Source: Deltaproteobacteria bacterium (GTDB taxonomy: Bacteria; Bdellovibrionota; Bdellovibrionia; Bdellovibrionales; JAMPXM01). From it: 64,000 bases of DNA. The stretch is from positions 558,001-622,000 of the forward strand of contig JAFLCB010000001.1 of assembly GCA_017302795.1 (NCBI GenBank), given 5' to 3'. Made by a program: the position numbers and the translations under genes. Under the pieces are notes generated by a model, which did not search any database, had not been told where the DNA came from, and saw only the letters and a program-made list of their open reading frames with translations. Of this stretch, positions 7,349-60,770 are shown piece after piece. Positions within the stretch are counted from its first letter, which is position 1. Every line of letters begins with the position of its first letter.

Positions 7349-9016
7349 ATGTCCAACGTGTATGGAAAAGTGGAGCCGATGAACTCGAAACATGGCCGAC
7401 GGTTGGCGGCGTCGTTTTTAGGTGTTCTGGCGACGATTGCGATTTTCGAAATCGCACTTCGAATTATTGGAATCGTTGAATTAGATAAAGGTCGGCCCAC
7501 TGAAGCCGGAAAAGATGGGAAGCCGGTTGTCGTTTTTGCCGGAAATTCCCACACCCTCGGATCAGGAGCACCGGTTGGCCGATCGTTTCCGGATCAGTTT
7601 CGCGAATTACTGGCGGACATGTTTGGCGAGACGCCATTTCAGATAGTTAACGTCGGGCGAGGGAATGCGAATTCAACATTTGTTGCTGATGCGATGCCTG
7701 GATTTTTAGAAAAGTATCAACCCAAGTATCTCGTCCTCATGACCGGCGAAACAAATTATTGGAACCACTTTGGCTACGGCAGGTATTATCAAATCCAGCA
7801 TGGCTGGAACCTTTTCACGGCGGCCTATGACCTTGCCTATCAGTCTAGAACATTCCGATTCGTTCAATTGTTTTTCGAGTTTATCATAGATCCGCGCAGA
7901 AGAGATCCCGCGAACGTGTTCTCGGATCTATCAACTATTGATCGAGCTTACATGTGGATCGCGGTTACCAATAACTCAAACATGTATAGTCCGGGTAAAA
8001 TGTCAGAGGATGAGCTTCGCTCGGCCTATGCGGCACTTCATGCGTTGCACTCGACACTGCCGCAACACATCGGTGTCGTTGAAACATTAATGGATGTCGC
8101 GTTGGCCTTGGGGTCCTATGATGCCAAATATCGAGAGTACGGATTCTCCTACGCGCGAAAGCTAACTGAATTGACGGCGGGAAAATATTCTTACTCAGCA
8201 GACCGGATGCTAAATGTTTACCTAAAGGGAGGAGAATTCGATCCAGAAACTGTCAGGTTGTCCAAGGATCTGATCGACCGGCGGCCCCAGCCATTTAAGC
8301 TTTACGAAGAATTCTACAGTAGCTTTTCTCCGCCTCAAGCCATAGATGCGTTGCCGGTTGAAAAGAAGTTTGAGTTTCTAAAGAAGGCACTATCTCACCA
8401 CCCCAATCAGCCGCAAGTGCGCTTTCATTATTTTCAAAAATTGATTGATTCAAATCAAACTGAGGAAGCGATCAGAGTCATCCAAGAGGGTATCGACTTG
8501 AACCCGTTCGCCAACCATTTCAATTGGATTTCACTTCTTCGAAACACAGGAGAGGGATTGAAGTGGAGAAAAAATCCCGACGCGGAAAAATTTGTCGCGG
8601 AAACAGAGAAGATCGCTGCCGAATATAAGAAACGATTCCCCTCGCAAGAGGGTAGGACGAGGGTCATCAAAAATACTGAAATTGAAAATTGGGTTCGAGC
8701 AGATCTCCAGCGGATTTTTGAAGAGACGGAAAGGCGTGGCGTGAAACTAATGCTACAGACTTATCCGCCAGAGCGATATGGCCCGGAAAAACTTGTTGAC
8801 CAGATAATTCGAAATTTTGCTCGGGAACGCGGCCTTCCATTATCTGATACGTCAAATCACTTCCTAACGCTTCAGCCCGATTCGATAAAACGAGAAGAGT
8901 TTTTCACGAAAATGTACGGTGATCACGACAACCATTTAGGCGAGTCAGGTTACGCCGAAATCGCAAAAATCCTTGTGCCTGCCTTTGAAAGAGCCGGATG
9001 GCTCCCGGCTAAATAG
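7349..9016 (+). CDS. Membrane-anchored SGNH-hydrolase-like protein with TPR-like middle
   Basis: 555 residues. An N-terminal transmembrane helix (about residues 18-36) precedes an SGNH/GDSL-like domain: VVFAGNSHTLGSG holds the nucleophile block with serine in GNSH, VGRGNANS and LMTGETNYWNH resemble blocks II and III, and DHDNHLGESGY near the C-terminus supplies the Asp-x-x-His dyad. Between them, roughly residues 225-410, are helical repeats (LSHHPNQPQVRFHYFQKLIDSNQTEEA resembles a TPR). An O-acyl esterase or transferase acting on an envelope glycan is the likely role but is inferred. The start could also be the ATG at 7379. Divergent to the DUF5989 gene; the 3' end overlaps the next minus-strand gene by 8 bases. 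Confidence 0.75.
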   Translation: MSNVYGKVEPMNSKHGRRLAASFLGVLATIAIFEIALRIIGIVELDKGRPTEAGKDGKPVVVFAGNSHTLGSGAPVGRSFPDQFRELLADMFGETPFQIVNVGRGNANSTFVADAMPGFLEKYQPKYLVLMTGETNYWNHFGYGRYYQIQHGWNLFTAAYDLAYQSRTFRFVQLFFEFIIDPRRRDPANVFSDLSTIDRAYMWIAVTNNSNMYSPGKMSEDELRSAYAALHALHSTLPQHIGVVETLMDVALALGSYDAKYREYGFSYARKLTELTAGKYSYSADRMLNVYLKGGEFDPETVRLSKDLIDRRPQPFKLYEEFYSSFSPPQAIDALPVEKKFEFLKKALSHHPNQPQVRFHYFQKLIDSNQTEEAIRVIQEGIDLNPFANHFNWISLLRNTGEGLKWRKNPDAEKFVAETEKIAAEYKKRFPSQEGRTRVIKNTEIENWVRADLQRIFEETERRGVKLMLQTYPPERYGPEKLVDQIIRNFARERGLPLSDTSNHFLTLQPDSIKREEFFTKMYGDHDNHLGESGYAEIAKILVPAFERAGWLPAK

Positions 9017-10154
9017 TTTTTCTGATTTCCGAGATCTGCTCAACTGCGAACTCGAGATCCACTTTCTCCGTCGTTGGAGAAAAGCTGAGTCGAAGTTGAT
9101 GGGCCCGATCAGGGGCGTGTCCGAGCGCCAACAGTACCGCACTGCTTTCACTTTTTCCGGTTCCGCAGGCAGCTCCAGTGGAGCAGGCGATTCCCCGGTT
9201 CGCCAGTTCGCGATGAAGAATTTTTGAGGGAACGTCGGGAATGGTAAAGCTAAGGATGTGACACAACGACTCTGATTCAACCGGTCCGTTGATTTCCACT
9301 TTAGGAAACCGCTCCTTCAGGGTTTCGACACCGAAGATACGCAGCGCCTGCATTCGGCTAATGACGTCGGCGTTCCATGTTCCGCAGGCGACGGCAAACG
9401 AGGAAATGAGTTCTACGGAAGTCGTTCCGGGCCGAAGGCCGCGCTCTTGCTTGCCGCCGAAAACAAGCGGAGTGAGCTCGATATCCTGTCGGATATAGAG
9501 TGCGCCAATCCCTTTGGGGCCGCGAACTTTATGGCCACTAAGGGTCATAAGGTCGACCGGTAGCTCTCCTATCGAAAACGGCGTGTGGCAAAAGCTTTGA
9601 CAAGCATCAGCGTGAAAAAGAACTTTCGCCTTTCGACAAATTTCGCCGATGGCGCTGAGATCTTGAATTGTGCCGATTTCGTTATTGCCGTGAGAAATAG
9701 ATACGAGGACCGTATTGTTTCGAATGCCTGAAGATAAATGGTCGAGATCAACATAGCCTTCTCGGTCGACCTTGATCTCATCCCAATCACAAGCTCCTGA
9801 ATCCTTAAGCCACTTTGCAGTGTTTGCGACACTCGAATGTTCAGTCGAGAGCGTAAGTAGATGGGGCCGTTTGTCGCTTTGGCGATTCGCCCTTTTCCAA
9901 TCTTCCAAAGAGCGCTGAAGTACCCAGTTGTTGGCCTCTGTGCCACCAGAGCAAAAAACGATCTCTTTTGCTGCACTGCCCAGCTTGGCCGCAATCTTTT
10001 CCCGCGCGTGCGTCAGAAGTGCTGCGGCTTTCGTTCCTAATAAGTGTGCTGAGGATGAGTTTGCAACACCCTCTTCGTGCAATGCGATGAGGTGGCGGAG
10101 CGCCTCTGGAGCCATTGGTGAAGTCGCGGCGTGGTCGAGGTAAGTAGATTTCAT
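9009..10154 (-). CDS. Cysteine desulfurase (NifS/IscS class), PLP-dependent
   Basis: 381 residues from the ATG at 10154. It removes sulfur from L-cysteine for iron-sulfur cluster or thio-cofactor assembly. Visible motifs: YLDHAATSP at the N-terminus, FCSGGTEANN, TEH (His105), HADACQS (Asp183), the PLP lysine in LSGHKVRGPKG (Lys209), RPGT, and the catalytic cysteine in ACSTGAACGTGKSES (Cys330). An in-frame GTG at 10169 is an alternative start. It lies beside three iron-sulfur radical SAM genes, so a dedicated role in cluster supply is plausible but inferred; whether it is the main IscS or a specialised paralogue cannot be told here. Confidence 0.9.
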   Translation of the reverse strand: MKSTYLDHAATSPMAPEALRHLIALHEEGVANSSSAHLLGTKAAALLTHAREKIAAKLGSAAKEIVFCSGGTEANNWVLQRSLEDWKRANRQSDKRPHLLTLSTEHSSVANTAKWLKDSGACDWDEIKVDREGYVDLDHLSSGIRNNTVLVSISHGNNEIGTIQDLSAIGEICRKAKVLFHADACQSFCHTPFSIGELPVDLMTLSGHKVRGPKGIGALYIRQDIELTPLVFGGKQERGLRPGTTSVELISSFAVACGTWNADVISRMQALRIFGVETLKERFPKVEINGPVESESLCHILSFTIPDVPSKILHRELANRGIACSTGAACGTGKSESSAVLLALGHAPDRAHQLRLSFSPTTEKVDLEFAVEQISEIRKTI

Positions 10155-10171
10155 ATTGAGATCGTCCACTC

Positions 10172-11257
10172 TTGATAAACTTCAAGCAAGTCGAGACAAT
10201 AAGCGGCGTGAGCCACGACCATAAATCAATCGCCATTGGCGACACAGACGAGAATGGCACTGCGAAGTCCATGACCACTTGGTCGGTGGAAGAAGCGCTG
10301 GCAGCCAGAGTAAACGGATGGAAGAACTGGCTCTGCGCTGCAGGATCAGAAAATCTTCACGTTACACCGGACGGAAATCTGTTCACAGCAACCTGCAGAG
10401 TCGGTGGATTTTTAGGAAATGTGTTTGAAGGAAAAATGTCGTTACCGTCGCAATGGGTCACTTGTACTAAAGAGTGGTGTATGTGCGGCGCCGACATGCA
10501 GTTGCGAAAGGCGAAATCTGAACAAAGCCGCCTCGCTGCGACCGGGAAACTGCCGCCAGATTTAGCAGGTGCGATCGAGGCGAGACAGCAGAAAGCCCGG
10601 CTAGCTAGTTGGGTCGCGCCTGCACAGTACGACGCTCATCGGGCTTTTCCAAAATCAATAACATGGGATATTTCGAGACGCTGTAACTACTCATGCAGTT
10701 ACTGTCATCCATCGGTTTCCAACCAGTTCGATTCCCATCATTCTTCACGAACATTGATCGAAGCGATTGATCGATTGAACGATCGATTTTGCAATGGGAC
10801 CCCAACTAAATGGGTTATTACCGGAGGCGAGCCGACTACGAATCCCGCATTCATGGAGGCCGTCGATAGAATCAACAGCCATGGGCACTTGATTCATGTG
10901 CAGAGCAACGGTAGTCGAGGTCCCGCGTACTTGCGGGAGTTGATTGGTAAAGCGTGCGTTGGTCTAAGTTGCCATCTCGAGGCTGGTGCAACCGATCGAT
11001 TTGTAGAAAGCTGTCGAGCGGTTGTCGATGAAAAAACAATAAGCCCTGCTGCCGGGCGCATGTGGTTTGGAGTGCGCGTGATGGTCGGACCAGGTCGACT
11101 AGTGGAAGCCCTTAAGGTTCGTAAAAATCTTTTAGAAATCCCATCGTTTGCTGAAAAGGCCTTTGTCAATTTCAGTCCGCTCTACCAGAGGCTCAAGCAA
11201 GATCAGCTAATGGAATATTCTAAGGAAGAGCTGCAAGAAATTCTAAAATACGCCTAA
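10172..11257 (+). CDS. Radical SAM protein with cysteine-rich N-terminal domain
   Basis: 361 residues. The radical SAM core begins at CNYSCSYC (Cys171, 175, 178), which binds the 4Fe-4S cluster and S-adenosylmethionine; VITGGEPT supplies the GGE motif. The first 110 residues hold five further cysteines (55, 75, 98, 103, 105) in a layout like an auxiliary cluster site (DGNLFTATCRVGG, CTKEWCMC), the reverse of the usual C-terminal SPASM order. The substrate is unknown. The TTG start at 10172 is weakly supported; ATG 10271 is an alternative but would still retain all the cysteines. It lies between the cysteine desulfurase and two minus-strand radical SAM genes. Confidence 0.8.
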   Translation: MINFKQVETISGVSHDHKSIAIGDTDENGTAKSMTTWSVEEALAARVNGWKNWLCAAGSENLHVTPDGNLFTATCRVGGFLGNVFEGKMSLPSQWVTCTKEWCMCGADMQLRKAKSEQSRLAATGKLPPDLAGAIEARQQKARLASWVAPAQYDAHRAFPKSITWDISRRCNYSCSYCHPSVSNQFDSHHSSRTLIEAIDRLNDRFCNGTPTKWVITGGEPTTNPAFMEAVDRINSHGHLIHVQSNGSRGPAYLRELIGKACVGLSCHLEAGATDRFVESCRAVVDEKTISPAAGRMWFGVRVMVGPGRLVEALKVRKNLLEIPSFAEKAFVNFSPLYQRLKQDQLMEYSKEELQEILKYA

Positions 11258-11268
11258 GCGAGGTGCCG

Positions 11269-12591
11269 TTAGATCTCCAGGAAGCGATTCAATTCAGGAA
11301 ATGTTTTCGAAAAACTAGTTCCGCGCTCGGCGTCTAGACGACGGATGTAATCGCGAGTTTGATTCAGTCGAGAAGAATGATCGGCCTCGTTCATCAAATT
11401 GATGATACCTTGAATCTTGTTCGACTTCTTTCGGCTCCGATTTTCAAAGGCAACCAGCTTTTCGGTGATGGCCTTTTTAAGTTCGGAAGGATAATTCTGG
11501 ATCGAAAGATAGGGTGGATAGTGAACCACCCCAGGGTGAAAATAGCCGTTAAAGCCCTTCGTTACTTTTCTAAAGTTTTGGTCCTCGACCCATTGGGCGT
11601 ATTCGTCCAAGTAGAACATGTTCATCAAGTGAACCGAACAGAGCAGCATGACCTTCACGCTCTCTGGCGATTCCTCATCGAGACACTTTAAGTTGTTCGA
11701 AATCGCTTCCCAATTGGCTGGGTAGCGCATGTAGTTGTTCTTCTCGCCCCAGCAATCGAGGCTGATGAACACCTCTACTAGTTTAAATTCTTTCCAAAGG
11801 TCGAAGAGGGATTTGTCTAGAAGTGTTCCATTGGTATGGTACCGAATCTGAATATTTTTAGCCGCACCGGTGCGGACGCAGGCCTCCACGAGGCGGCGAT
11901 GTTCTTCAAGCAACATCGGCTCGCCGCCGCCGACGATGATCTCTCTCATGCTAGGTAGCATGGCTTCAAGATCCGTCCAAAACGCAGGATCTTTGTACCA
12001 CTCGAAACGGGACTGATTAATTTTGCTTTTGTGCGCCCACTCACTTCGTATTTCCGAAGTTTCTGCGGTCTCGGCAATCTTTTTCGCGAGAGCGGTCCAG
12101 CGACTGGAATCTTGTGGACGGCACATCACGCATTGAAGATTACAGGTGTTTCCTAAGCGCAGATCGATTGCAACGATGTCTTCGTTGAGGCGTCCATCGG
12201 ATTGAGTTTTTCGAACTCGATCGAGAACGAAGTCCCTTCCGAAGCGCTCTTTCCACACGCGATTTTCCGTAACTCGATGTGACCGGTAGCCATTTTTCTC
12301 TTCCGCATAGCAATGCGTGCAGGCTGATACATTTTCGCCCTTTAGCATTTTTAGGCGCGCGCTTCGCAAGTAATCGGAATTCCACGCTGCTTGGAGGGTC
12401 TGGTCGTTCAAATTTAAACGCTGTTCATTCTTCGCGACACAACAGAGGATTGCTGAACCATCGGTGTGCGTTGCAAGATGAGTGAACGGCAACGCACAAA
12501 ATGTTTCAGAAATACGTCCGAATTCGTAGGGATCAGCGATCGCCTCGTCGGAAATGCCAGGATTGATATTGCGAAATGGAAAATCAGCCAT
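11269..12591 (-). CDS. Twitch-domain radical SAM protein B
   Basis: 440 residues from the ATG at 12591. An N-terminal cysteine domain (Cys32, Cys50-51, Cys91, Cys94; pattern FCALPF...DGSAILCC...CTHCY) is followed by the radical SAM site CNLQCVMC (Cys150, 154, 157), the GGGEP motif and a TIM-barrel-like core. This is the arrangement of the family called twitch-domain-containing radical SAM proteins. The start overlaps the stop of the paralogous upstream gene by 8 bases, so the pair is probably translated together. Likely modifies a peptide, protein or small molecule; no substrate is evident. Confidence 0.85.
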   Translation of the reverse strand: MADFPFRNINPGISDEAIADPYEFGRISETFCALPFTHLATHTDGSAILCCVAKNEQRLNLNDQTLQAAWNSDYLRSARLKMLKGENVSACTHCYAEEKNGYRSHRVTENRVWKERFGRDFVLDRVRKTQSDGRLNEDIVAIDLRLGNTCNLQCVMCRPQDSSRWTALAKKIAETAETSEIRSEWAHKSKINQSRFEWYKDPAFWTDLEAMLPSMREIIVGGGEPMLLEEHRRLVEACVRTGAAKNIQIRYHTNGTLLDKSLFDLWKEFKLVEVFISLDCWGEKNNYMRYPANWEAISNNLKCLDEESPESVKVMLLCSVHLMNMFYLDEYAQWVEDQNFRKVTKGFNGYFHPGVVHYPPYLSIQNYPSELKKAITEKLVAFENRSRKKSNKIQGIINLMNEADHSSRLNQTRDYIRRLDAERGTSFSKTFPELNRFLEI

Positions 12592-13894
12592 GAATTCCGT
12601 AGCCCTCTGTCTCAAGTAATTGGCCGAGGTCGGGAAGTGTATGCTCGAGGCGCTGTTTACGGTGAACGTCTAACATTCTCGTGTAGGACACGAAATCTTT
12701 CATTTTGTCTGCGTCAGTCGATGGCTGCTCGTTCAATAGGTTGACGCAGCTGTCGATCGAGTTCTTCAAATAGCGCTGCGTCTGATAGGTTTTGGACCGT
12801 GCTTTATATTGCTCGAGCCTTCTAATCGCCTCTTGCTTCACGGTCGGGGGCAAAATCTGAACGTTGATATAATTGGGATCTGTCGCATAAAGAAAGTCGA
12901 CATTTATGTCTCGCCGAGTTTCAACAGCAACAGCCTCGATGTAATCAAGAAGTTTCGTGATCGTCAGCACGTTGTAAATCTGCAGAACTGGAGTCACTCC
13001 GATCTGAACATTGGGCGGCAGCTGCACTAACTTTTTAAAATTCTTGTCGATTGTTTCCCAGCGACTTAGGAAGCGAATGTATTCGTTTTCTGGACCGAAG
13101 CCGTCGATGGATGCGTTGATGAGCACAAATTGAAAGTGTGGCAAGTACTCGAGAAACTTATCTTGAACATTGGTGCAGTTGATATTGAACATTAGGAAAA
13201 TGTTTTTCGCGTGACCGGACTCGATACATGCCTGCATGAACTTGTAATTTCGCTCAATCAGCGTGGGCTCGCCGCCGGTTAAGTAAACTTTTCGAAGATT
13301 CGGAATGGACCGGATGACTTCGTCCCAGAACAAATCTGATTCGTACCACTCCGGGGTTTCGGCGGGCTTCTTGCCGCCGTTAAATCGATTCCAAAAATCT
13401 CGATACTCCTCGTTGGTGTCGTGGAGCTGCACGACCTCTTTATGAATTTGGCTCGAATTAAACGGGTTGCAAGATCGACACTTTAAATTACATAGATTGC
13501 CTAGACGCAAATCCAAGTAAAGCGCGGGCTTTTCAACTTTGAAATCGGCGCTCTTCGACGCTTCAACCCGGGATTCGATTTCCGCGCGTGCTTTGTTGAG
13601 CCACTCTTCGTTGTGCATTTCCCGATAAGAAGTTTTGCCGATGGATTCTTGGAAATAGCAAAGTTCGCAGCCTGAAACCTGTTTCCCTTCGAGCATCCCC
13701 TGGCGAATACTTCGCATGTGATCGGAGTTCCAAGCAGACGCAAGAGTATCCTCGCCGGCCTTAAACCCTTTGCCATCTTCTTTTTTAACCATGCCGCCGC
13801 CCTTGGCGACACAGCAAAAACTGACTTTTCCATTCGACTGAACGACTTGCTCAATCCAGGGGTAAACACAGAAGGTTTTGTTTAAACTACTCAT
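12584..13894 (-). CDS. Twitch-domain radical SAM protein C
   Basis: 436 residues from the ATG at 13894. Same architecture as its downstream neighbour: Cys9, Cys27-28, Cys76 and Cys79 form the N-terminal cluster domain (TFCVYPW...GKVSFCC...CELCY), then the radical SAM site CNLKCRSC (Cys135, 139, 142), YLTGGEPTL and a barrel domain with INASIDGFG. The two proteins are recognisably paralogous (shared SAWNSD/AAWNSD, LRLGN and GGEP segments), so they arose by tandem duplication and may act on related substrates or as a heterodimer (inference). Confidence 0.85.
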   Translation of the reverse strand: MSSLNKTFCVYPWIEQVVQSNGKVSFCCVAKGGGMVKKEDGKGFKAGEDTLASAWNSDHMRSIRQGMLEGKQVSGCELCYFQESIGKTSYREMHNEEWLNKARAEIESRVEASKSADFKVEKPALYLDLRLGNLCNLKCRSCNPFNSSQIHKEVVQLHDTNEEYRDFWNRFNGGKKPAETPEWYESDLFWDEVIRSIPNLRKVYLTGGEPTLIERNYKFMQACIESGHAKNIFLMFNINCTNVQDKFLEYLPHFQFVLINASIDGFGPENEYIRFLSRWETIDKNFKKLVQLPPNVQIGVTPVLQIYNVLTITKLLDYIEAVAVETRRDINVDFLYATDPNYINVQILPPTVKQEAIRRLEQYKARSKTYQTQRYLKNSIDSCVNLLNEQPSTDADKMKDFVSYTRMLDVHRKQRLEHTLPDLGQLLETEGYGIHG

Positions 13895-13944
13895 GCGACG
13901 ACCAGTCTCTAGCGGAAAATGGCAAATCTCAACCAAGAATGCGT

Positions 13945-54903: not shown

Positions 54904-55293
54904 ATGATGAAAACAGCCAATGTGACCGGTCTTGCAACTGCTGCAGTCTATGTAACTGATTTAAAAGAGGCGCTACATTTCTACGAGTCCGTTTTAGGTT
55001 TCAAAAAATTTAAGGATATGGGGTCGGACGGCTGTTGGGGAAAGATCGGCGACCTCGGTCTTTATATCGGCGGCGGAGCCACGCCTGTCAAAGTCACGGT
55101 TGGCGATCAACAAGTAACGCTTGTCCTTGCCGTCGATGACATCGTGATGTTTCACAGTCAGGCGAAGAGCGAAGGTATAGCATTTGATGAAGAGTTGATG
55201 CCACTAGGCGACGACAAATCATTCTGGTTTCGGTTTAAGGATCCATCGGGAAATCTTTTAGAGGCGGCCGGAGAAATGAGGAGAAATGTCTAA
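54904..55293 (+). CDS. VOC (glyoxalase/dioxygenase superfamily) protein
   Basis: 129 residues, AGGAGG upstream of the ATG. One pair of beta-alpha-beta-beta-beta modules: TAAVYVTDLKEALHFYESVLGFKKF at the start and FRFKDPSGNLLEAAGEM at the end, with a glutamate where metal-binding VOC enzymes have a ligand. Substrate unknown; detoxification of aldehydes, thiol conjugation or drug binding are all seen in the family. Overlaps the next gene by 8 bases, in a three-gene operon. Confidence 0.88.
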   Translation: MMKTANVTGLATAAVYVTDLKEALHFYESVLGFKKFKDMGSDGCWGKIGDLGLYIGGGATPVKVTVGDQQVTLVLAVDDIVMFHSQAKSEGIAFDEELMPLGDDKSFWFRFKDPSGNLLEAAGEMRRNV

Positions 55294-56284
55294 CTCATTT
55301 GAAAAATTCGAAGATCAGATCTGCGCACAAGAAAAAACTGTTCGCCAGGAAATGGAAAAGCTCTTTGCTCTTCACAAGAGTCGACCGCCAGCGACAGTTA
55401 AAGATTACACCTTTGCGACTGCGAAGGGCCCTGTGAAGTTGTCAGAACTTTTTGGCGAAAAAAAAGAACTCATCCTGATTCACAACATGGGCAAACAGTG
55501 CGTGTACTGTACGCTGTGGGCGGATGGATTCAATGGTTTCAGTGGGCATCTCGAGAATCGTGCGGGGTTCGTTCTGATCAACAACGACTCGGTCGAAGAA
55601 CAGACTGCATTTGCAGCATCGCGCGGTTGGAAATTCAAATTGGCATCTGCGAAAGGCACGAGTTTTTCGAAAGACATGGGATTCCTCGACGACAAGGCGG
55701 GGAAGATGCCAGGAGCCTCGGTTTATACAAAAATGCCGGATGGAACTATTCAGCACCGAACTCGCGCTGGATTTGGACCAGGCGACTTGTTCAGCAGTAT
55801 CTGGAGTTTGTTTGATCTTCTTCCAGCGGCTCAGCCGGGAGCTGAAGACTGGTCTCCGAAATTTTCGTACGAGCAAAAACAAGCCGAGCCCTTCCGTTTC
55901 AGTCCTAATATCGCACTGAATGTTCGCAACATCGATCAAGCGGTCTCGTTCTATCGCGATACGCTTGGGTTTACCGTGGGCACGGTGAAAGATTTCGCGG
56001 AGGGTGTCCCGATGCTAAAGGGCGGAACAACGATTTGGCTCGATGCGGTTTCGCAGGACGACGAAGCGAATGTTGGAAAGACCGCTTTTGAATTCGTCGT
56101 TGCGGACCTCGAGGCTTCGAAGAAGGTCTTGGTCGCGAAAGGTTGTAAACCTGTCATGACGACGACTGGTGCAGATCATGAAGGCGAGATGATAGTAGAT
56201 CCATTTGGAATGAAGTTCCATCTCTACAAAGCAAAACCAAAATCAGAAGCGAAAGTGACAACACCAACAGAAGCGCGGGTCTAA
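55286..56284 (+). CDS. DUF899-VOC fusion protein
   Basis: 332 residues with two domains. Residues about 5-195 are a DUF899 thioredoxin-like domain: ELILIHNMGKQCVYCTLWADGF with a CxxC (Cys72, Cys75), then FVLINNDSVEEQTAFAASRGWKF. Residues about 205-318 are a VOC domain (FSPNIALNVRNIDQAVSFYRDTLGFTV, ending IVDPFGMKFHLYKAK). It links a redox fold with a glyoxalase fold in one chain, between a VOC gene and a GST gene, which supports thiol-based detoxification. Confidence 0.85.
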   Translation: MSNSFEKFEDQICAQEKTVRQEMEKLFALHKSRPPATVKDYTFATAKGPVKLSELFGEKKELILIHNMGKQCVYCTLWADGFNGFSGHLENRAGFVLINNDSVEEQTAFAASRGWKFKLASAKGTSFSKDMGFLDDKAGKMPGASVYTKMPDGTIQHRTRAGFGPGDLFSSIWSLFDLLPAAQPGAEDWSPKFSYEQKQAEPFRFSPNIALNVRNIDQAVSFYRDTLGFTVGTVKDFAEGVPMLKGGTTIWLDAVSQDDEANVGKTAFEFVVADLEASKKVLVAKGCKPVMTTTGADHEGEMIVDPFGMKFHLYKAKPKSEAKVTTPTEARV

Positions 56285-58364: not shown

Positions 58365-59399
58365 ATGATGTCCGGCGATTTAGTTGTCAGCAAAACAAAA
58401 GTCGATCGCGCTGGCGAGATCTTAAAGGGAAATCATTCCGAAACTGAGATCACAACATCCCTCGAAACTCTCTCACAGTGGCGAGCTTATCACGCAATGC
58501 CACTCGAAAACTTCGCGAAGGTTTTAAGGGTACGGAGTCAAAAAATTTGTGCGAATTCGATTGTTGCGCAACGGCTTAAAAGGACGCCGTCAATACTATT
58601 AAAACTATCGAATCACAAAACGATGCGCCTCTCAGCCATGCAGGACATCGGGGGCCTTCGCGCAATTCTGGACTCGTCTAAAGACGTCTACGAACTATTG
58701 GAACTCTACAAGAAGTCGAAATCGAAACACTCGATGTTTTCGATGGACGACTACATCCAAAACCCGAAGAAGGATGGCTACCGAAGTATTCATCTCGTGT
58801 ACAAACTTGCGAAAAACCCGAGTCTTTTTTTAGAAATTCAACTGAGATCACAACTCCAACATACTTGGGCAACTGGCGTTGAAGTGTTTGGCACATTACA
58901 AAATAGTTCATTCAAATCTGGACATGGAAGTCGACAATGGTTGAGTTTTTTTGCGCTGCTAAGTTCCGTTATTGCGTTAAAAGAGGATCAGCCTCTTCTG
59001 CAAGTGCATCGTGAAATTTCAAAAAATGAACTCGTGAAGCGGACGCAACAGGCAATTCAAGAGCTGCATGTGATCGAAAATCTCAGCGTTTATACGGCGG
59101 CTTACAAGACGATTTCAAATAAGAGTTCGAAAGGAAGAAACGGGCATTACAGCTTAATCCTTCTGAACTCAAGAGAAGATACGATTTCTCTCGACACGTA
59201 TGGAGCAAATCAGTTCCAAGCAGCAGCGAAAGCCTATTTGGACTTGGAGCGAACACATTTTGAAGATGACCAAATTAACGTCGTTCTAGTTAACACGGGT
59301 GATCTTAAAAAACTCGAGTTGAGTTATCCGAATTATTTCATGGACACAAAAAATCTCGTTCAGAATCTTTCGTTAATTACTATGGGAAAGTTCTTGTGA
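58365..59399 (+). CDS. Stand-alone RelA/SpoT-domain (alarmone synthetase) protein
   Basis: 344 residues. The nucleotidyl pyrophosphotransferase core is intact: RLKRTPSILLK (Arg70-Lys80), MQDIGGLRAIL (Asp94, Arg99), NPKKDGYRSIHLVY (G-loop-like, Tyr139, Arg140, His143), and LEIQLRSQLQHTWA (Glu157, Gln159, Arg161, His166). There is no HD hydrolase domain and no TGS/ACT regulatory part, so it differs from long Rel/SpoT. A C-terminal region of about 150 residues is unrecognised. Small synthetases of this kind make (p)ppGpp, or are toxins (ToxSAS) or phage sensors (CapRel). AT-rich codon use and the element scars nearby suggest transfer. Confidence 0.85.
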   Translation: MMSGDLVVSKTKVDRAGEILKGNHSETEITTSLETLSQWRAYHAMPLENFAKVLRVRSQKICANSIVAQRLKRTPSILLKLSNHKTMRLSAMQDIGGLRAILDSSKDVYELLELYKKSKSKHSMFSMDDYIQNPKKDGYRSIHLVYKLAKNPSLFLEIQLRSQLQHTWATGVEVFGTLQNSSFKSGHGSRQWLSFFALLSSVIALKEDQPLLQVHREISKNELVKRTQQAIQELHVIENLSVYTAAYKTISNKSSKGRNGHYSLILLNSREDTISLDTYGANQFQAAAKAYLDLERTHFEDDQINVVLVNTGDLKKLELSYPNYFMDTKNLVQNLSLITMGKFL

Positions 59400-59420: not shown

Positions 59421-59654
59421 CGCGACTTTTTCAACAGGCCCCAATCTCTGCCCGGCGCCGCAACCACGCCCCGGTGTTCGCCTACTATCGTTTACTTCGG
59501 ACATTCGCAGGCGATTGCGCTTGTGTCTACCTCTGAATCAGCAGTGCTAACTGCGGTCGATATGGGCTGCGGTGCAGGTATTGAGACATCTGATTTATTG
59601 CGCCGAGGTTGGAATATGGCAGTTCATGGATGTTATTGCTCGAAAAAAGTTTGA
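59421..59654 (+). pseudogene. Relic of a SAM-dependent methyltransferase
   Basis: An open stretch without a start or ribosome site encodes, at about 59544-59636, VDMGCGAGIETSDLLRRGWN, a good class I methyltransferase motif I (DLGCGAGxET). The reading frame then stops after KKV with no further methyltransferase motifs, and nothing upstream completes the domain. Best read as a decayed gene fragment. Confidence 0.4.
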
Positions 59655-59713
59655 CGAAAACTCCTGGCCATCGTTCCGCCGATCCGGTCAGAAAAGATCA
59701 CTTGGAGCTTGAG

Positions 59714-59740
59714 AAAAAAAATGGCAGGTCTGCCTGCCAT
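59714..59740 (-). terminator. Intrinsic terminator of the double-glycine peptide gene
   Basis: Perfect 8-bp stem ATGGCAGG/CCTGCCAT with a 4-base loop, followed on the minus strand by seven U. It begins 28 bases after the stop codon of the small peptide gene and is among the strongest terminators in the window. Confidence 0.9.
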
Positions 59741-59768
59741 CGAATTTCCGTTGTTTTGTAATTTGGAA

Positions 59769-59921
59769 TTAGGCAGCGGCTTTGCCGCCATTGCTGTTTG
59801 CAGGCGGTCCGCCTGAACCTTGGCTACCGCCCTTTAGCAGCTTCAGATTACTTTCGTTCATCTTAAGCTCTTTTTTTTCTTTCTTCGAAAGCGCTGACTT
59901 CGGTTTCTTGTGCTCTCTCAT
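59769..59921 (-). CDS. Small double-glycine leader peptide, candidate modified or secreted peptide
   Basis: 50 codons from the ATG at 59921, with AAAGGGGGAA about eight bases upstream, a very strong ribosome site. The first 32 residues are basic and helical (REHKKPKSALSKKEKKELKM) and end in NLKLLKGG: hydrophobic residues at -4, -7 and -12 from the GG match double-glycine leaders cut by C39-type peptidases. The remaining 18 residues (SQGSGGPPANSNGGKAAA) are rich in Gly, Ser, Asn, Pro and Ala. A perfect terminator follows. No maturation or export gene is adjacent. It could be a bacteriocin-like or RiPP precursor, or simply a small protein of other function. Confidence 0.6.
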   Translation of the reverse strand: MREHKKPKSALSKKEKKELKMNESNLKLLKGGSQGSGGPPANSNGGKAAA

Positions 59922-59957
59922 CAGTTATTCCCCCTTTGGCGTTCAAGTTCAATTGTA

Positions 59958-60149
59958 TCAGGACATTGGCAACTTCGGTAAAGCGGCGAGGTTCGTCTCA
60001 AAACGGAGCTGAGAATAGCTCATTTCAAACCATTGAGCGACCATAGGCGGTGTGTCGCCGATAAAATGCCAATGCTGGCGGTCGTCGGTTGCGGGATCTT
60101 TGTAGAAGAATTCGTCGGTGTTTATTGAGACCCGATGGTGGTTTTGCAA
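59958..60149 (-). CDS. Small ORF upstream of the double-glycine peptide
   Basis: 63 codons with a TTG start and an in-frame stop just upstream, ending 36 bases before the double-glycine peptide gene. The sequence (SINTDEFFYKDPATDD, then QWFEMSYSQLRFETNLAALP) has protein-like composition but no recognised family and no good ribosome site. It may be a short gene in the same transcript or the 3' remnant of a longer one. Confidence 0.3.
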   Translation of the reverse strand: MQNHHRVSINTDEFFYKDPATDDRQHWHFIGDTPPMVAQWFEMSYSQLRFETNLAALPKLPMS

Positions 60150-60770
60150 GTCTTATCGATCCGAAAATAGTTCGGAAAGTTTTCGGATCGGCCGGCGTCG
60201 GATCAACTTTCGAAGTTGTTCTCGGTAGCGCGGCCTTCAGGCAAAAGTCTTGAGATCCTGTTGCCGTCGCCTTATGTTATTTAATGAAGTACCCAACCCG
60301 GAAGTGTAGTAGTGCTTTGTTTAACTTTTACTTTTCGGCTCAATAGTTTTCCCATTGGCATTCGTACTTCCACAATCGATTTTTCCCATTGTCCATCTGT
60401 TACCTTGGATTTAAAGAAGCTCGCGGCCTCTTGACAATAGTCGGCCCCAAAGCGCATTCGTCGTACCAATTACAGGTTCAAAGGACCAAAAGCTGGTGCA
60501 CGGGTAAAGTGTAGAACTTAATTCGGTTCACGTTTCGGGAAATAAGCGCGGAATGAGAATTTCGAGACTATCCACCGGAAATCGCAAAGATGCTGCGAGC
60601 TTGCTTTCGACCCTGAATCGATTTTCCGCACTCCTTTAGCTTTCTAAAGGTCGACTTTTAAAAGGGTTGATCCAGTGCCCAATATACGCCACGGAGACGT
60701 AGCTATTACATTCCTAACGCCCGCGATTGAAAGCAGCCTAGCCGAGGCCAATCTGAAGCTTAAGGAAAAC
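60150..60770. other. Intergenic region, probably decayed DNA
   Basis: About 620 bases. A 62-codon minus-strand frame (60281-60469: MRFGADYCQEAASFFKSKV...) is protein-like but lacks a ribosome site and is not recognised. A perfect hairpin CCTTTAG-CTTT-CTAAAGG lies at 60633-60650. No clear promoter for the downstream SGNH gene. Confidence 0.35.

Follow-up and report, generated by a model that had tools for sequence, protein, structure and literature searches.

The minus-strand frame at 59921..59769 of the window analyzed here (the whole 64,000-nucleotide stretch, C1:558001-622000, within the 4.23-Mb genome G000) is, by its substitution pattern, a gene under purifying selection. On balance, it is probably a free-standing accessory gene that encodes a strongly basic 50-residue protein (pI about 10.3) and that has spread horizontally within one Bdellovibrionales genus as a unit of ~340 bp.

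Coding evidence for the 50-codon frame

The frame (59769..59921, minus strand) translates to MREHKKPKSALSKKEKKELKMNESNLKLLKGGSQGSGGPPANSNGGKAAA*, a product of 50 residues, and its ATG is preceded by a ribosome-binding site, AAAGGGGGAA (59928..59937, minus strand), whose GGGGG is kept in all three genomes that carry the gene. An unlisted 50-codon frame with a ribosome site had been proposed at this place in an earlier sequence-only reading, and both elements were confirmed. A search of 369 genomes of the phylum returned exactly two relatives, at L005 in G004 and at L006 in G001, with 90% and 88% amino acid identity, respectively, to the window protein. The frame is 50 codons long in all three sequences, with zero indels inside it against several in the conserved DNA around it. 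Synonymous and nonsynonymous rates are unequal (dN/dS, 0.08 to 0.19), and in pairwise comparisons third codon positions hold 10 to 12 of the 18 to 20 differences. We compared the observed amino acid changes with those expected when the same substitutions are placed at random and found 5 versus 11.8 (P = 1e-4), 6 versus 11.6 (P = 0.002), and 6 versus 12.8 (P = 5e-4); a stop codon would arise in 17 to 40% of the random-placement trials. As the amino acid changes fall far below random placement, the frame is, as a gene, more than a chance occurrence. The conclusions on selection, and those on transfer below, draw on three sequences and hence three pairwise comparisons.

The 5.2-kDa protein carries 12 Lys/Arg residues versus 3 to 4 Asp/Glu residues, with a pI of 10.2 to 10.4 across the sequences. 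A low-confidence structure model shows a single helix at residues 13 to 30 followed by a disordered tail (pLDDT of about 80 at residues 11 to 20; mean pLDDT, 67; pTM, 0.30). Pfam and NCBIfam gave no match up to E 10, and the PHROGs gave nothing better than E 0.28. Searches of PDB, Rfam, phages, plasmids, and viral contigs were likewise negative.

The conserved unit, its carriers, and its surroundings

The gene lies within a conserved free-standing unit (59710..60049, minus strand) made up of an upstream hairpin, a promoter-like stretch, the ribosome-binding site, the open reading frame, and a terminator. By blastn, the unit aligns to L005 with 79.6% identity over 343 columns (59710-60049) and to L006 with 84.9% identity over 317 columns (59722-60037), and nucleotide similarity among the carriers ends abruptly on both sides. 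Outside the unit, the three carrier loci share neither DNA nor translated similarity, their flanks being unrelated.

The intrinsic terminator (59714..59741, minus strand) consists of a stem and a T-run (z = −4.4 versus shuffles). It had been described earlier as a perfect 8-bp hairpin; the terminator stands, but the stem has 9 pairs (59741-59720) ahead of the T-run. In L005 the stem is preserved by a U-A to G-C double change and in L006 it is degraded, leaving a clear terminator in two of the three carrier sequences. Purifying selection, the conserved ribosome-binding site, and this compensatory change strongly support the earlier view that the gene is real, short, and self-sufficient. A candidate sigma-70-like promoter, TTACCG-18-TACAAT (59952..59981, minus strand), was read from the sequence and the alignment; it is a weak consensus match that scores below the threshold of a consensus scan, and in the relatives the −10 element reads TATGAT or TATACT with different spacing. 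Upstream of it lies a conserved hairpin or dyad, TGAnnTGAGCTnnnnnnAGCTCCATTTTGAGACGA (59993..60027, minus strand; z = −2.4 to −3.1), of which each carrier genome holds a single copy and the other 10 of the 13 genomes of the family none. Its shape is kept while the closing pair varies (A.C, G-C, or A-U), and it may serve as an operator or as the terminator of an upstream gene.

The gene is carried by three of the five genomes of one Bdellovibrionales genus and is absent from all genomes outside that genus among the 369 searched. Both relatives come from metagenome-assembled genomes of Bdellovibrionales, and L006 is a short contig of such an assembly, whose context could be a binning artifact. 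Weak profile matches in other genera (E 0.02 to 0.8) lay inside long frames or ran across stops and were rejected as noise. Within the genus, we found no further copies and no LKLLKG peptide family, each genome having one such peptide. Within the literature library searched, nothing was found on double-glycine peptides or small open reading frames in Bdellovibrio.

The surroundings of the unit are variable and partly decayed. In the window, a remnant of a class I SAM methyltransferase gene lies outside the unit (59503..59666, plus strand); it has 95 to 96% identity to the intact copy at L053:398-1123 (contig C21 of G000) and misses about 390 bp internally. The remnant adjoining the unit is a recent duplication that then decayed. 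The other flank holds a DUF4019 fragment (60284..60469, minus strand), for which an HNH/DUF222 remnant like that in G004 had been considered and rejected. The GDSL gene adjoining the unit in G000 is absent from the other four genomes of the genus. A stand-alone RelA_SpoT-domain protein is encoded at 58365-59399 (plus strand) in this accessory neighborhood; it may be either an alarmone synthetase or a toxin sharing the fold. Farther off, at 55286-56284 (plus strand), a DUF899/AhpC-TSA-like domain is fused to a glyoxalase domain, directly followed by what reads as a glutathione S-transferase-like gene.

The G004 copy of the unit has an intact HNH gene on one side and is directly followed on the other by a short 3′ remnant of an HNH gene (L005:8215-8303), at the end of which stands a near-perfect 30-bp palindrome, CGCCGGACGTTCGAGCTCGAACGATCGGCG. 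That genome has an expanded set of HNH/DUF222 genes, with 31 matches that include L005:6875-7891 and copies on L056, L060, L064, and L067. Members of a recent subfamily (67 to 84% protein identity) have sequence in common as far as a CGGAAGTTCGAACTCGAACGA-like stretch close to the 3′ end and all diverge past it, as if a repeat element ended there. HNH-driven insertion as a general route was rejected, since no such sequence flanks the other copies of the unit.

Genomic positions and probable horizontal spread

We found the unit at nonsyntenic positions. An ~80-kb segment of G004 (C31, 107 to 192 kb) is collinear with G000 (C2, 1 to 80 kb); within it only G004 has the unit, which G000 carries on C1 instead. 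The G004 copy has metX and a dioxygenase gene as its neighbors; G000 carries an MFS-like gene at that place instead (names read from translations), and the interval measures about 1.35 kb in G002, which lacks the gene, versus about 3.7 kb in G004.

The unit copies are also closer to each other than the genomes around them. Among the 49 orthologous ORF pairs of G000 and G004 compared in the collinear segment, 48 have a pS of 0.68 to 0.90, near saturation; the exceptional pair (pS, 0.09; pN, 0.20) has the pattern to be expected if it is a spurious frame shadowing a conserved gene. The pS of a housekeeping gene is 0.70 to 0.74 in the three carrier comparisons (0.73 for G000-G001), and that of the unit is 0.30 to 0.39 (0.39 for G000 versus G004 and 0.30 for G000 versus G001). 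A comparison of ~238 kb of G000 with ~260 kb of the relatives yielded just three matches longer than 100 bp with 78% identity or more, two of them from the unit. Nonsyntenic positions together with a pS far below that of orthologous ORF pairs point to horizontal spread, and movement of the unit between accessory, partly decayed loci is the simplest account. Codon bias or a second constraint at the DNA or RNA level could lower pS without transfer, but the positions would stay unexplained.

Two kinds of known elements resemble the unit in part. Moron-like accessory genes sit in phage or prophage genomes as independent genes, each with a promoter and terminator of its own. The unit resembles them as a self-contained transcription unit (here with a weak candidate promoter) present in one copy at unrelated places and moving horizontally, and both an occupied and an unoccupied version of one site and nonhomologous flanks were found. 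It differs in that the genes scanned beside its copies (RelA_SpoT, GDSL, and signal peptidase; HNH; methyltransferase and glycosyltransferase) include no phage structural genes and in that it has no phage or viral-contig match. Integron gene cassettes, whose hairpin is the 3′ attC site, are similar in being mobile units of a few hundred base pairs with a single small gene and a hairpin at one end; here, however, the hairpin is upstream, and there is neither an array nor a second hairpin copy in the genome. The ~340-bp block could conceivably be a minimal mobile cassette, bounded by the conserved 5′ hairpin and the terminator, that an enzyme acting in trans has moved among Bdellovibrionales and that carries a new family of small basic proteins, a reading that we regard as possible but improbable. 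A unit of this size that moved on its own would be unusually small for a mobile cassette.

It is distinctly unlikely that the gene was instead inherited vertically, translocated, and held by strong synonymous constraint with no horizontal transfer. Every carrier does belong to one genus, but the gene is missing from two of its five members, the pS of the unit is no more than about half the value found in nearly all orthologous pairs, and even the noncoding parts of the unit are still alignable. Moreover, the closest unit copies are those of G000 and G001 (85% DNA identity versus 80% for G000-G004), although housekeeping DNA is more distant between these two genomes (73% versus 77%).

The gene product and its possible role

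The sequence-only reading had taken the frame for a double-glycine precursor of a bacteriocin or modified peptide. On such a view, residues 1 to 32 would be a leader cut after Gly32 by a C39 peptidase-transporter, and an 18-residue Gly/Ser/Asn/Pro peptide (computed mass of the window core, about 1527.6 Da) would be exported as a bacteriocin or signal. C39 substrates have hydrophobic residues at −4, −7, and −12 and need small residues at the site pocket, and known cleavage motifs end in GG, GA, or GS (PMC6363468). The leader pattern was indeed found as described, with L29, L26, and M21 at these positions, invariant in the three sequences, and 18 residues after the site; the modeled helix stops just before the glycines. 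The proposed site itself (Gly31-Gly32; codons at 59826..59831, minus strand) is not conserved, reading GG, GG, and GN across the three sequences, with KGG replaced by KGN in L006 of G001, and the "core" varies no more than the "leader." One of the two relatives thus fails the check on the GG site that the sequence-only reading had itself named as able to refute it.

We also recognized no C39 peptidase-transporter in G000 or G001: the single weak PF03412 match in G000 (98.6% complete) is a Peptidase_C39_2 and TPR protein rather than a PCAT transporter, and G001 (88% complete) has no match. G004 has one similarly weak match, in a 313-residue frame that is too short for a C39-ABC transporter. The three carrier loci have no common maturation, export, or immunity gene, and each genome has a single peptide of the LKLLKG kind. 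The radical SAM and cysteine desulfurase genes to which a link had been floated do exist (10172-13936 and 9009-10169), 46 to 50 kb away, and no link to them is visible. They comprise two adjacent twitch-domain radical SAM proteins (NF033640; 11269-13936, minus strand), adjoined by a third radical SAM protein and a NifS/IscS-like cysteine desulfurase.

The motif is also common enough to arise by itself. Of 1,693 short ORFs sampled from 208 kb of G000, five, including the window gene, have GG with I/L/M/F/V at −4, −7, and −12, which is not above chance; one of the five resembles an AtpI-type membrane protein (name read from the sequence). The likeness to class II bacteriocins and ComC-type peptides thus consists of a short ORF, the spaced hydrophobic residues, a Gly-rich C-terminal part, and Gly-Gly in two of three carriers. 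Those peptides have a conserved GG, a PCAT transporter, and immunity or maturation genes, whereas the protein studied here has a lysine-rich leader, a conserved core, and no family match. Because the site is KGN in G001, no C39-ABC transporter or shared gene was found, the core is conserved, and the motif alone also turns up by chance, we did not file the gene as a double-glycine precursor, and consider the precursor reading quite improbable. In a short ORF, a double-glycine motif carries little weight as evidence; what decides is whether the transporter and the partner genes are there and whether the cleavage site is conserved.

Equally improbable, in our judgment, is a selfish or addictive element in which the peptide is toxic or regulatory and the upstream hairpin region acts as an antidote RNA or operator, similarly to type I toxin-antitoxin systems. 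A compact self-sufficient unit present singly at unrelated places, with a hairpin conserved beyond the needs of a promoter, would suit such an element. The peptide, however, is highly charged and not membrane spanning as most type I toxins are, and we found no Rfam match, no second conserved ORF, and no antisense promoter in the consensus scan. Least probable of all is that the block is mainly a regulatory small RNA, with the frame secondary or dual function at most: the conserved hairpin and covarying terminator pairs would agree with it, but the changes concentrate at third codon positions, indels occur only outside the frame, most predicted pairs inside the ORF are invariant and hence uninformative, and Rfam offers no match.

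Under the favored account of a free-standing accessory gene, a ~340-bp unit with its own regulation and terminator would pass between species of the genus and settle in variable, partly decayed gene neighborhoods. The small protein would remain in the cytosol, uncleaved at Gly-Gly and not exported; its lysine-rich helix (residues 13 to 30) might bind an acidic partner (nucleic acid, an acidic protein, or the surface of a membrane), with the Gly/Asn/Pro tail remaining flexible. As no homologue or partner gene points to a target, binding is a role guessed from the composition and the weakest part of this account. The gene would provide a dispensable, condition-dependent function. The small protein represents a family missed by every family library searched here, yet clearly under selection, and its distribution indicates that, in the Bdellovibrio lineage, even a gene of this length can move between genomes as a self-contained unit.
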